A stretch of 64,000 bases of DNA from Thalassobius sp. Cn5-15. GTDB lineage: Bacteria > Pseudomonadota > Alphaproteobacteria > Rhodobacterales > Rhodobacteraceae. The stretch is from assembly GCF_022347685.1 (NCBI RefSeq), contig NZ_JAKRGF010000007.1:1-64000 (forward strand). The letters run 5' to 3'. The notes below the pieces were generated by a model. It was not told the origin of the DNA, made no database searches, and was given only the letters and a program-made list of their open reading frames with translations. The translations under genes and the position numbers were made by a program. This document shows, piece after piece, positions 15,687-55,751 of the stretch; position 1 is the first letter of the stretch, and every line of letters starts with the position of its first letter.

Positions 15687-15705
15687 AATACTGGTGCCCC
15701 CACAC
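15687..15705. repeat. att direct repeat, tRNA-proximal copy
   Basis: Identical 19 bases to 2799-2817. Positions 15692-15705 are the 3' end of tRNA-Thr (acceptor strand with encoded CCA), and 15687-15691 lie just beyond. Insertion into this site rebuilds the tRNA 3' end, so the tRNA remains functional. Confidence 0.88.
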
Positions 15706-15767
15706 GGACTCGAACCGCGGACCTACTGATTACAAATCAGTTGCTCTACCAGCTGAGCTATAGGGGC
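15692..15767 (-). tRNA. tRNA-Thr (anticodon TGT)
   Basis: The minus strand folds as a full cloverleaf: GCCCCTA acceptor against TGGGGGC, D loop AGCTCAGCTGGTAGAGC, anticodon stem CTGAT/ATCAG around TTTGTAA with TGT, and TTCGAGTC T loop. CCA is encoded. Its 3' end is the integration site of the neighbouring element. Confidence 0.95.
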
Positions 15768-15922
15768 ACGGCCAGCTAGGCTGGCTTGCACCTCGAATTA
15801 ACGGACCGGGCGGGGGGGTGCAAGGGGGCAAATGTCGGTCTGGGCAGGAAAAATGACAGATTGCGTGCCGCAGGTTAAAAATGCTTGCTTTGCACATTCT
15901 GAAGGTGTCGTGAGTGTTAAAT

Positions 15923-15997
15923 TGGAGCGGGCGAGGCGATTCGAACGCCCGACCCTAACCTTGGCAAGGTTATGCTCTACCCCTGAGCTACGCCCGC
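15923..15997 (-). tRNA. tRNA-Gly (anticodon GCC), copy 1
   Basis: Minus strand GCGGGCGTAGCTCAGGGGTA with anticodon stem-loop AACCTTGCCAAGGTT (GCC), T arm GTTCGAATC and acceptor end CGCCCGCTCCA. One of three identical copies in tandem. Confidence 0.95.
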
Positions 15998-16045
15998 TCC
16001 GTTGTGAACACTGACGCAGTTCTGACGCCTCCGATAGGAGGAAGT

Positions 16046-16120
16046 TGGAGCGGGCGAGGCGATTCGAACGCCCGACCCTAACCTTGGCAAGGTTATGCTC
16101 TACCCCTGAGCTACGCCCGC
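16046..16120 (-). tRNA. tRNA-Gly (anticodon GCC), copy 2
   Basis: Same 75-base cloverleaf as at 15923-15997, with encoded CCA. The spacer to copy 1 is 48 bases and unrelated to the other spacer. Confidence 0.95.
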
Positions 16121-16161
16121 TTCCTTTTGATGGTTGGGTGACCACCGTGGGTATACCTAAT

Positions 16162-16236
16162 TGGAGCGGGCGAGGCGATTCGAACGCCCGACCCTAACCT
16201 TGGCAAGGTTATGCTCTACCCCTGAGCTACGCCCGC
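16162..16236 (-). tRNA. tRNA-Gly (anticodon GCC), copy 3
   Basis: Same 75-base cloverleaf again. It is the first of the three in the direction of transcription; the three and tRNA-Thr lie on one strand and could be one precursor. Confidence 0.95.
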
Positions 16237-20949: not shown

Positions 20950-21168
20950 GGTGCGCACTCCCGCGTTCCGTGAAATTTCTGTGACAGTGCTTGGCACGTT
21001 GCTGCATCGCAGCGCAACGTTTTTGATCCATATCGGTCACAAAAGATGACCAATGGCTGTCCGTATGCTGCGATTTTGCAGGTAATTTACGGTTTAATGT
21101 GTGCAATGTGCGCATTCGCGCATCAGTTATTCACAATAGACCCGAGTCACCCTGCACCGTTGTCGCGC

Positions 21169-28225: not shown

Positions 28226-28267
28226 ACAAAAAACGGCGGCGCCCAGGGAGGAGGAGGGTGCCGCCGT
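28226..28267 (-). terminator. Cuckoo hairpin 8, doubling as terminator of the DUF1127-array transcript
   Basis: Twelve pairs (28233-28244 with 28256-28267, one G-T), loop AGGGAGGAGGA on the plus strand, followed on the minus strand by TTTTTTGTTC. The sRNA fold itself has taken on the terminator role. Confidence 0.85.
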
Positions 28268-28274
28268 CTTTTTA

Positions 28275-28305
28275 GTGGGGCCCTCAGGAAGGAGGAGGAG
28301 AGCAC
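28275..28305 (-). ncRNA. Cuckoo hairpin 7 (degenerate)
   Basis: The loop motif is present (AGGAAGGAGGAGGA on the plus strand) but the stem is weak: only CTC/GAG and an outer GTG/CAC can pair. This copy looks decayed. Confidence 0.55.
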
Positions 28306-28333
28306 CGTATCCCAATCAATTCAGGTCAAAGAT

Positions 28334-28368
28334 GCGGCGACCTCAGGGAGGAGGAGAGAGGTCGCCGC
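28334..28368 (-). ncRNA. Cuckoo hairpin 6
   Basis: Eleven perfect pairs (28334-28344 with 28358-28368), standard loop at 28345-28357. Its stem closely resembles that of hairpin 4. Confidence 0.85.
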
Positions 28369-28376
28369 TCTTGACA

Positions 28377-28414
28377 ACGATCCGGAGCAAGGGAGGAGGA
28401 AAAGCCCCGATCGT
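28377..28414 (-). ncRNA. Cuckoo hairpin 5 (imperfect)
   Basis: Six outer pairs (28377-28382 with 28409-28414), a mismatch, four inner pairs with one bulged A, and a loop changed to AAGGGAGGAGGAAAA on the plus strand. An 82-base interval separates this loop from the previous one. Confidence 0.75.
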
Positions 28415-28459
28415 ATTCTGTTGTCCCCGCAGCGGTTTCGCCACGCCGGGCTGTCAGAT

Positions 28460-28494
28460 GCGGCACCTCCAGGGAGGAGGAGAGGAGGTGCCGC
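28460..28494 (-). ncRNA. Cuckoo hairpin 4
   Basis: Eleven perfect pairs (28460-28470 with 28484-28494), standard loop at 28471-28483. Confidence 0.85.
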
Positions 28495-28503
28495 TCTTGA
28501 CAA

Positions 28504-28538
28504 CGAAAGACCTCAGGGAGGAGGAGAGAGGTCTATCG
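28504..28538 (-). ncRNA. Cuckoo hairpin 3
   Basis: Seven pairs next to the loop (28508-28514 with 28528-28534), one mismatch, three outer pairs. Standard loop at 28515-28527. Confidence 0.82.
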
Positions 28539-28546
28539 TATCTGGG

Positions 28547-28583
28547 TGCGGCGTCCTCAGGGAGGAGGAGAGAGAACGCCGCA
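28547..28583 (-). ncRNA. Cuckoo hairpin 2
   Basis: Eight outer pairs (28547-28554 with 28576-28583), one mismatch, three inner pairs, standard loop at 28559-28571. Confidence 0.82.
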
Positions 28584-28587
28584 GATT

Positions 28588-28622
28588 TCAGACGCTTCAG
28601 GGAGGAGGAGAGAAGCGTCTGG
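28588..28622 (-). ncRNA. Cuckoo hairpin 1 (nearest the DUF1127 gene)
   Basis: Ten perfect pairs (28589-28598 with 28612-28621) plus a terminal G-T pair, standard 13-base loop. It begins four bases after the DUF1127 stop codon, so the mRNA and the array are certainly one transcript. Confidence 0.85.
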
Positions 28623-28626
28623 AACC

Positions 28627-28851
28627 TTAAACTCGTGTGTCGCGGTATGCTGCTTCCCATGCGATGGAGCGCAGCTGGCTGCGGTGATACCCCAGATCAG
28701 CCAGGTCCCGATTGCTCAGAACCGACATTTCACTGATGGTTTTGCGATACACCTTGCGACGGGCCAAACGGTCGCGCAGATCCTGAATCAGCACCGCAAA
28801 GCGGTCTGCGATGTCAAAGGAGTGGCTGCGATCTGTAGCGGCGTGTGCCAT
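28627..28851 (-). CDS. DUF1127 small basic protein (CcaF1-like)
   Basis: A 74-residue protein with the C-terminal DUF1127 motif: TISEMSVLSNRDLADLGYHRSQLRSIAWEAAY. In Rhodobacter sphaeroides the DUF1127 protein CcaF1 is encoded just before the CcsR RNAs, is induced by stress sigma factors and binds RNA, affecting maturation of those RNAs. The same arrangement here (protein, then hairpin array, one terminator) supports the same role. The N-terminus is longer than the shortest 45-residue members, with an amphipathic helix (DIADRFAVLIQDLRDRLARR). Confidence 0.9.
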   Translation of the reverse strand: MAHAATDRSHSFDIADRFAVLIQDLRDRLARRKVYRKTISEMSVLSNRDLADLGYHRSQLRSIAWEAAYRDTRV

Positions 28852-29170
28852 TTCAGTGTCTCTTTTTGTTTAGTGGCGCCGCATATTGGCACCGTGTTTG
28901 TTTCGATGAATTGAATATGGGGGCTTTGCTGCGGCTGCACAATCCCCGATGCTGCAACGCAGCCATGCAGCTAATGCATATGCAAAGCTGACCTATTTTC
29001 CCCTGCGTCATTTTTTGGCATATCGGGTGCTAAGTCGCTGAAACATAATGCTTTGATGGATTTCAGGGCAGTTTTTTTGATTTTTCTGGGTTTCACCATC
29101 GCCTTGAAACTGGCGTAGTCTGAAGCGCATTTGCTGCAAGAATCAGCAGTTAGAAAATGAGGGAACGCGC
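28852..29170. other. 319-base divergent intergenic region (DUF1127 / mrp)
   Basis: Apart from the possible stress promoter near 28883-28910 nothing definite was seen. It must carry promoters for both directions. It is more AT-rich than the flanks. Confidence 0.4.
28883..28910 (-). promoter_or_regulatory. Possible stress-sigma (RpoH-like) promoter of the DUF1127-array operon
   Basis: On the minus strand ATCGAAAC is followed after about 12 bases by CCAATAT, which loosely fits an RpoH-type promoter (TTGAA and CCATAT-like boxes). It would place the RNA start about 25 bases before the start codon. In Rhodobacter the orthologous operon is under RpoHI/RpoHII; the boxes here are imperfect. Confidence 0.3.
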
Positions 29171-53816: not shown

Positions 53817-55751
53817 ATGTTTACCAAAATCCTGATCGCCAACCGGGGCGAAATTGCCTGCCGCGTTATGGAAACCGCCCGTGCCTTGGGGGTGCAGACC
53901 GTTGCTGTCTATTCCACCGCAGATGCGGCGGCGAAACATGTGGCCATGGCGGATGAGGCCGTGCTGATCGGCACCGGACCCGCGCCGGCGGACAGTTACC
54001 TGATGGGCGACGAAATTATCGCAGCGGCGAAATCAACCGGTGCGCAGGCGATCCATCCAGGCTATGGCTTCCTCAGCGAGAACCCTGAATTTGTTGATGC
54101 GGTGGAGGCGGCGGGGTTGACCTTTGTCGGTCCCTCGGCCTCAGCCATCCGCGCGATGGGTCTGAAGGACGCAGCCAAGGCCCTGATGGAGGAGGCAGGC
54201 GTTCCTGTCGTCCCCGGTTATCACGGCACCAATCAGGATGCGGATTTCCTTGCTGAGCAAGCGTCAGAGATCGGCTACCCCGTGCTGATCAAGGCCGTGG
54301 CAGGCGGTGGTGGCAAGGGCATGCGCTTGGTTGAGGCGGCAGAGGATTTCGCCGATGCTTTGGCCAGTGCACGAGGAGAAGCGCAGACTGCTTTTGGTAA
54401 TCCGGATTGCCTGATCGAAAAATACATCCAAAAACCCCGCCATATCGAAGTGCAGGTTTTTGGCGATGGCACCCGCGCGGTGCATTTGTATGAACGTGAC
54501 TGCTCGCTACAGCGTCGCCACCAAAAGGTAATCGAGGAAGCCCCAGCGCCCGGCATGACCGAAGAGATGCGCGCAGCGATGGGTAATGCCGCTGTCCGGG
54601 CGGCAGAGGCGATCGGGTATAAGGGCGCTGGTACGGTCGAGTTTATCGTTGATGGATCGAACGGCCTGCGCCCTGATGGGTTCTGGTTCATGGAAATGAA
54701 CACCCGCCTGCAGGTGGAACATCCCGTCACAGAACTGGTCACAGGCGTTGATCTGGTCGACTGGCAGCTGCGCGTCGCTGCTGGCGAGGCGCTGCCAATG
54801 GCGCAGGATCAGATCCCGCTGATCGGCCACGCCTTTGAGGCCCGTCTTTATGCCGAAGATGTGTCGAAGGGCTTTCTGCCCGCGACCGGCACACTCAGCC
54901 ATCTCAGCTTCCCCGTACTGGCGCGCGCCGACAGCGGCGTGCGGGCAGGGGACACGATCAGCCCGTGGTATGACCCGATGATTGCCAAGGTGATCGTGCA
55001 TGGTCCCAGCCGTGCGGCGGCGTTGTCGCGTTTGTCGGCGGCACTTGATCAGACACAGGTTGCAGGGACGGTGACAAATCTTGCCTTCCTTGGTGCGCTG
55101 GCCGCCGATCCGGCCTTTGCTGCGGGCGACGTGGACACCGGCCTGATCGCGCGGGAGATTGACGCGTTGGTCGCAGCGCCCGAGGTAACGTCCGTGCACA
55201 AGGCCGCCGCCGCACAGGCTGCACTTGGGCTGGCGCAGACGGAGTGGGACAGCGGATTCACCCTATGGGGCCCGCTGCGTCAATCGGTGACACTGGCCCA
55301 TGGAGAAGAAGACGTCATCGCAACGGTTGAGGTGCGCGCCGATGATCTGCAACATTGGGATGTGGGGGGCGCCCAGATTGTCTGCACGCGTGTAAACGGT
55401 CAGTGGCTGGCTGACGGAAAACGACTGCCTGATGTGGCGCTGGCGGGCGACGCGATCACGGTCTTCGCAGGCTACGGCCTCAGCTTCACCCGCATTGATC
55501 CGCTGGATCAGGCGAGCGCGGCAGCAGGGGACGGCAATGTGATTGAGGCCCCGATGCCCGGACTGGTCAAAGCGGTCTTTGCACGCGCGGGCCAAGAGGT
55601 GAAGGAAGGCGATCGTCTGGCCATTCTGGAGGCGATGAAGATGGAACATTCCCTGCTGGCCGCCCGTGACGGTGTGGTGGCAGAAGTGATGGCAAGCGAA
55701 GGCGATCAGGTCGAGGCAGGCGCCGCGCTGATCCAGTTGGAAGACGCGTGA
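53817..55751 (+). CDS. mccA: Methylcrotonyl-CoA carboxylase, biotin-containing (alpha) subunit
   Basis: A 644-residue subunit with biotin carboxylase (MFTKILIANRGEIACRVM, AVAGGGGKGMRLV, RDCSLQRRHQKVIEE, EMNTRLQVEHPVTE), the BT linker domain and a C-terminal biotinyl domain with EAMKMEHS (biotin Lys near 608). With mccB it makes 3-methylglutaconyl-CoA. Start at 53817; a frame from 53796 has no start signal. Confidence 0.96.
   Translation: MFTKILIANRGEIACRVMETARALGVQTVAVYSTADAAAKHVAMADEAVLIGTGPAPADSYLMGDEIIAAAKSTGAQAIHPGYGFLSENPEFVDAVEAAGLTFVGPSASAIRAMGLKDAAKALMEEAGVPVVPGYHGTNQDADFLAEQASEIGYPVLIKAVAGGGGKGMRLVEAAEDFADALASARGEAQTAFGNPDCLIEKYIQKPRHIEVQVFGDGTRAVHLYERDCSLQRRHQKVIEEAPAPGMTEEMRAAMGNAAVRAAEAIGYKGAGTVEFIVDGSNGLRPDGFWFMEMNTRLQVEHPVTELVTGVDLVDWQLRVAAGEALPMAQDQIPLIGHAFEARLYAEDVSKGFLPATGTLSHLSFPVLARADSGVRAGDTISPWYDPMIAKVIVHGPSRAAALSRLSAALDQTQVAGTVTNLAFLGALAADPAFAAGDVDTGLIAREIDALVAAPEVTSVHKAAAAQAALGLAQTEWDSGFTLWGPLRQSVTLAHGEEDVIATVEVRADDLQHWDVGGAQIVCTRVNGQWLADGKRLPDVALAGDAITVFAGYGLSFTRIDPLDQASAAAGDGNVIEAPMPGLVKAVFARAGQEVKEGDRLAILEAMKMEHSLLAARDGVVAEVMASEGDQVEAGAALIQLEDA

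Follow-up and report, generated by a model that had tools for sequence, protein, structure and literature searches.

Eight cuckoo-type RNA hairpins behind a DUF1127 gene of Thalassobius sp. Cn5-15 and their possible link to the PHB-storage regulator PhaR

In the present study, a stretch of 64,000 nucleotides from Thalassobius sp. Cn5-15 (hereafter the window) was analysed, and a small DUF1127 gene followed by eight hairpins with a constant loop was observed on its minus strand (Table 1). As read from the sequence, the locus is very probably an operon of the ccaF1-CcsR type (cuckoo, CIN1) that makes small RNAs, and the array is an ordinary addition to this known operon family; the upstream elements TTGTGCAN3GCAGCA and CTGCN3GCAG seem to be new. 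Herein, we propose that, in this bacterial family, the PHB-storage regulon might include the cuckoo array as its RNA arm. The RpoH promoter would be gated by PhaR, bound to two sites that mostly lie 29 nt from each other. The anti-Shine-Dalgarno (aSD) RNAs would thereby silence import and acyl-CoA genes only during carbon storage combined with sensed stress, and the phasin mRNAs of some genomes would carry cuckoo hairpins of their own. We place the probability of this proposal at about 0.5.

Table 1. Features of the array locus and its upstream region, with positions in the window.
Feature	Position	Strand	Basis
CTGCGTTGCAG, agrees with the PhaR site CTGCNNNGCAG reported for R. sphaeroides; the second element follows after 20 nt (after 29 nt in most relatives)	28952..28962	minus	PMC12542648
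TTGTGCAGCCGCAGCAA, second operator-like element, conserved; overlaps the putative -35	28926..28942	minus	motif comparison
CCCCATATT, RpoH-type -10-like element	28914..28922	minus	motif comparison
DUF1127 gene (74 aa), corresponds to ccaF1 of R. sphaeroides	28627..28851	minus	PF06568
Hairpin 1, loop TCTCCTCCTCCCT	28589..28621	minus	loop comparison, covariation
Rfam ar14 (RF02344) match, hairpins 2-4	28455..28588	minus	covariance model, 69.7 bits vs cut-off 58.8
Hairpin 2, loop TCTCCTCCTCCCT	28547..28583	minus	loop comparison, covariation
Hairpin 3, loop TCTCCTCCTCCCT; forms with hairpin 4 a block of which 5+6 is a diverged duplicate	28503..28539	minus	loop and block comparison
Hairpin 4, loop TCTCCTCCTCCCT	28452..28502	minus	loop comparison, covariation
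Hairpin 5, altered, loop TTTTCCTCCTCCCTT	28377..28414	minus	folding, loop comparison
Hairpin 6, loop TCTCCTCCTCCCT	28334..28368	minus	loop comparison, covariation
Hairpin 7, decayed in the window, intact in G003	28278..28311	minus	folding
Hairpin 8, T6 tail, probable terminator	28228..28272	minus	sequence

The 74-aa ORF (28851-28627, minus strand) matched DUF1127 in Pfam with an E-value of 1.1e-7, above the cut-off, and an NCBIfam search of the same ORF gave no match. Its stop codon, TAA, occupies 28629-28627 and the first 10-bp stem begins at 28621; the sequence-only reading was right to place the array directly behind the gene, and the spacing of four bases that it gave is five when counted. 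The hairpins extend from 28621 to 28228, with CCTCCTCC in all eight loops and CCTCCTCCC in seven of them, and the sole further CCTCCTCC on either strand of the 64 kb lies at 54188. The 13-base loop had been said to be identical in six hairpins and is identical in five (1, 2, 3, 4 and 6); that of hairpin 8 deviates at its first base, and hairpins 5 and 7 deviate too. In these five hairpins, to which the covariation count was confined (hairpins 5, 7 and 8 being left out), 98% of the stem cells are paired and seven of ten stem pairs have changed on both sides, a number reached by 2 of 500 shuffles. The claim that the loop is constant and the stems variable is supported by these compensated changes and by the eight CCTCCTCC loops, and compensated changes were also observed in hairpin 1 between the window and the same-genus genome G003. 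The order of gene and hairpins on one strand, with TTTTTT directly after hairpin 8, agrees with the single operon that had been suggested, and the earlier view of the last hairpin as the terminator is graded probable; hairpin 8 was absent from the output of a terminator scan because the scan allows loops of 3-8 only. Turnover within the array, claimed from one decayed and one altered copy, was also observed. Hairpin 7 folds poorly (-9.9 kcal/mol) compared with its counterpart in G003 (-15.4), hairpin 5 has a longer loop and still folds (-17.1), and block 3+4 duplicates block 5+6, with 77 of 96 aligned columns identical and a loop-masked score of 40, the highest score among shuffles being 16. 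Among the loop-masked comparisons of doublets, only D2/D3 and D1/D3 exceed all 500 shuffles, the scores of D2/D4, D1/D2, D1/D4 and D3/D4 being reached by 1, 26, 22 and 41 of them, respectively; a doublet pattern is not evident in the hairpin gaps of the window (40, 44, 44, 81, 45, 56 and 44).

Cuckoo RNAs are defined with two to four hairpins. The array is matched over hairpins 2-4 by the ar14 covariance model at 69.7 bits, two further ar14 matches within it (43.6 and 42.4 bits) falling under the cut-off. This covariance-model check, the Pfam match and the eight hairpins together bear out the identification of a CcsR/cuckoo array behind a DUF1127 gene. In R. sphaeroides, the DUF1127 gene ccaF1 and CcsR1-4 are reported to share one transcript, which starts at an RpoHI/RpoHII promoter and undergoes processing by RNase E; the CIN1 locus is named in the same report (PMC10253847). 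The ccaF1 (RSP_6037)-CcsR1-4 operon resembles the locus in the window in the DUF1127 gene, the same-strand hairpins with CCUCCUCCC loops behind it and the terminator-like end, and the window also has a putative RpoH-like promoter element; the comparison, made through published descriptions and Cereibacter ovatus, gave no difference in kind. The rhizobial ar14/NfeR1 and RFMSmelA075/A099 RNAs share the CCUCCUCCC loops and variable stems (PMC3927594; PMC10746234) and differ in having three or four hairpins; NfeR1 is moreover a free 123-nt small RNA with its own promoter, for which the relevant passages of the source describe no DUF1127 operon. The number of hairpins varies within the CCUCCUCCC family (PMC3927594).

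The sequence-only reading had set the eight hairpins against four RNAs in R. sphaeroides, but the array is probably no larger than that one. RS0680a, an RNA of R. sphaeroides, consists of two stem loops with one aSD motif each (PMC3927594), and therefore CcsR1-4 probably equals, by analogy, about eight hairpins. In C. ovatus, which shares the genus of R. sphaeroides, the eight hairpins are arranged as four doublets (gaps 39, 92, 38, 65, 40, 65 and 40), an arrangement that would be consistent with four CcsR RNAs of two hairpins each. With an E-value limit of 1, matches to a hairpin model (R1) were obtained in 39 of 61 genomes, including all nine genus members, although some weak matches outside the bacterial family may be chance. 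At least one hairpin was observed in 29 of 30 loci (one per genome, the window's own included), with counts from 1 to 15, a DUF1127 gene upstream on the same strand in 28 of the 29, and exactly eight hairpins in six of the nine genus loci. A larger set was drawn from 115 relatives of a DUF1127 query of the Rhodobacter type, of which it holds the best 80, and is for this reason not a random sample; in 79 of these 80 loci the DUF1127 gene is followed by a hairpin chain (median 9, maximum 16), and one locus, L094, has zero hairpins in the chain. Ten hairpins occur in 23 loci, eight in 13, nine in 11, seven in nine, twelve in seven, six in six, four in four and five in two, with 2, 13, 14 and 16 once each. 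The medians of successive gaps in the 79 arrays alternate (39, 67, 40, 66, 39, with later gaps of 39-44), which suggests that arrays tend to be built of doublets. Behind the DUF1127 gene of L226 (G181:C1:332500-336700), 26 aSD hairpins were counted, and a 140-nt unit is repeated there 6.5 times with its copies 97% alike; therefore arrays can grow by tandem duplication. Such expansion might also be expected of functionless mobile or REP-like palindromic repeats; this explanation was rejected as extremely improbable, since place, strand and loop are constant across the loci examined and the stems are compensated. The survey corrects the size comparison: eight hairpins are about average, doublets are the common unit, and tandem growth reaches 26. 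Among the other arrangements seen, at L013 (G015:C6) about 2 kb of one strand holds four DUF1127 matches, three of them followed by hairpins, and arrays without a detected DUF1127 gene occur at L227 (G120:C27), L022 (G031) and L206 (G150), with the second operator element upstream in L227 and L206. In the genome of the window itself, L005 (G000:C9:979438-979570) matches ar14 at 27.4 bits (below the cut-off) and has one aSD hairpin preceded by TGC-rich sequence.

Several observations bear on what the loops do. The 13-mer loop, picked without folding, occurs 159 times in 52 of the 80 loci, and its flanking arms pair at 8.33 of 10 positions compared with 5.61 when re-dealt, with at least eight pairs in 121 of the 159 occurrences. 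The loop is named as the anti-Shine-Dalgarno core in PMC3927594, and the aSD motifs of NfeR1 silence ntrB in a manner that depends on the loops (PMC10746234). The leaders of DUF1127 genes (79 usable loci out of 80) contain AGGAG or GGAGG in no case, compared with 39 of 322 uncurated long ORFs. Such avoidance would be predicted from silencing of these sites by the loops, although weaker Shine-Dalgarno cores are frequent in the same leaders (45/79 vs 82/322). The hairpins might instead be confined to a role in cis, serving the DUF1127 mRNA as 3'-UTR stabilisers or as stops for processing, given that they adjoin the stop codon (the first loop motif lies within 30 nt of it in 73 of 79 arrays) and that TTTT follows the final hairpin in 40 of the 79. 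We consider this improbable, because stabilisers need no constant loop, arrays occur without a detected DUF1127 gene (L022, L227), hairpins are also found behind phasin genes, and silencing by NfeR1 is loop-dependent. Equally doubtful is a sponge in which the loops titrate an RNA-binding protein such as CcaF1 and silence no mRNA: the tandem copy number of up to 26 and the reported action of CcaF1 on CcsR RNAs (PMC10253847) are consistent with it, whereas the identity of the loop with the anti-Shine-Dalgarno core and the avoidance of AGGAG and GGAGG in DUF1127 leaders argue for the silencing of mRNAs. For candidate targets, 13 sites of the form GGGAGGAGN3-9ATG were found in the genome compared with 6 for the reversed control, an excess that is suggestive only as a target signal. 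These leaders include those of a DctP-type TRAP solute-binding protein, a thiolase-like ORF, an aldehyde dehydrogenase, a short-chain dehydrogenase and a periplasmic binding protein; two sites belong to short acetate-CoA ligase starts whose frames extend beyond the sequence read, with family matches below the cut-offs, and one of the 13 sites is antisense to a phasin hairpin.

Conserved elements were observed within the 300 nt upstream of the DUF1127 genes. In a set of 107 loci, 94 have TTGTGCAN3GCAGCA, a pattern that dinucleotide shuffles gave 0 times, and 60 have CTGCN3GCAG, which shuffles gave 1.3 times on average and 3 times at most. This set counts four genomes twice (L023=L042, L024=L075, L025=L047, L028=L038); without the repeats the elements are present in 90 and 58 of 103 distinct loci, respectively, and both in 53, with 43 of 56 pairs starting exactly 29 nt apart, although these counts are not independent events because the loci are related. 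As background, 2606 windows from the same loci (1303 stretches, both strands) gave CTGCN3GCAG 40 times and TTGTGCAN3GCAGCA 7 times. The locus in the window is one of six with a spacing of 20 nt, and only CTGCATGGCTG is found at 28 nt before its second element. The second element, which overlaps the putative RpoH promoter, is missing in its exact form from 13 of the 103 loci, including three of the nine genus members, and a -10-like pattern, CCnA[TA]nT, follows 4-5 nt further on in 48 of the 103. In the window, the putative RpoH-type -10-like CCCCATATT has TTG upstream; no sigma-70 promoter match was found at this promoter. The exact second element occurs once in this genome, at the operon, and in 156 of 199 family genomes. 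Among 30 loci listed for it, 19 lie before a DUF1127 gene, 18 of these with hairpins, and two more lie before hairpins with DUF1127 undetected (21/30 in total); as for the remaining nine, a biotin-carboxylase-type start lies 24 nt from one and an HpcH-type start 75 nt from another, and several are inside long ORFs. Elsewhere in the window, a PhaR-like GCTGCATCGCAGC lies at 21001-21013, about 50 bases before a likely pyruvate carboxylase start, and four tRNA genes, three of them with identical scores, lie on the minus strand at 15695-16236.

Several findings bear on a possible link of these elements to PhaR. First, a phaR gene is present in the genome (L153 3558-4124, PF07879, E 1.5e-27), as is PhaR (PF07879) in 194 of 199 family genomes. 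According to PMC12542648, R. sphaeroides PhaR binds CTGCNNNGCAG, which is matched by the predicted PhaR site at 28962-28952, and PhaR also binds the promoter of the mmgR small RNA at ATTGTGCACCGCAGCA. The S. meliloti mmgR gene under PhaR (AniA) likewise has a PhaR-type site in a small-RNA promoter; mmgR, however, is a different RNA, binding was shown there by EMSA whereas the site in the window is predicted from sequence, and the second element of the window has one middle base more than the mmgR site. Second, similar paired sites are found at phasin promoters. The organism's own phaP locus (L004/L153, G000:C13:215833-216500) has two CTGCN3GCAG sites 28 nt apart upstream, and its stop codon is followed by two CCTCCTCCC cuckoo hairpins and then by phaR; one more site, common to phaZ and phaC, lies between these two genes. 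Of the 22 phaP loci (own included; matches in 22 of 46 genomes), 21 have CTGCN3GCAG, 18 have it as a pair with a spacing of 26-30 nt, and eight have aSD hairpins behind phaP. The motif alone is unspecific, since 13 of 20 GCTGCN3GCAGC in the genome lie inside ORFs of at least 300 aa, and the S. meliloti PhaR core YGCRNYGCR showed no enrichment in the promoter set (31/107 vs 29.9).

Third, the genomes that lack PhaR were inspected. G011 and G169, each rated 100% complete, have DUF1127 genes with 3 and 8 hairpins, respectively, and neither upstream site; by eye, ATTGTGC and a -10-like stretch are kept in G169 and GCAGCA is lacking, and G011 has one exact second-element copy elsewhere. In two further PhaR-less genomes, DUF1127 was not found (G118) or gave a weak match only, with no hairpins (G158). 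The PhaR-less draft MAG G141 (92% complete, 590 contigs), in contrast, retains the second element before DUF1127, and TTGTGCA is missing in six of 107 loci, including the PhaR-bearing G017 and G035, of which G035 has exact second-element copies elsewhere and G017 none. These cases, together with the four bases, not three, between TGC and GCA in the second element, which is therefore not of the canonical PhaR spacing, would fit an upstream dyad that belongs to another regulator or is just an extended RpoH promoter, with PhaR uninvolved. Against this alternative, which we hold to be somewhat less probable than our proposal and a serious one nevertheless, stand the paired sites of the phasin promoters, the exact CTGCN3GCAG in more than half of the distinct loci (58/103) and the lack of GCAGCA in PhaR-less G169, which keeps ATTGTGC. 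Among the open-licence papers listed, no link of PhaR to CcsR, CcaF1 or DUF1127 was found; PMC9230146, the only one of them with both PhaR and DUF1127, mentions the two in unrelated places.

The operon probably works as follows. A single transcript would begin at the putative RpoH-type promoter and encode the DUF1127 protein, and its 3' part would be cut by RNase E into small RNAs of one or two hairpins each, as in the published relatives. By analogy with the same relatives, the loops would base-pair with ribosome-binding sites resembling GGGAGGAG, so that a number of mRNAs are silenced; copy number changes by duplication of hairpin units. In the added proposal, the repressor PhaR, which moves from DNA to PHB granules, would occupy the sites over and upstream of the -35, and production of the RNAs would require both an active stress sigma factor and the withdrawal of PhaR by PHB. 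In other words, stress (RpoH) and carbon-store status (PhaR) might jointly gate the cuckoo RNAs, a reading for which we see roughly even chances. The proposal addresses which input besides the stress sigma factors controls the CcsR RNAs and, if the PhaR link is true, carbon storage would be joined to global post-transcriptional silencing in this family, comparable to what is already reported for mmgR in S. meliloti.
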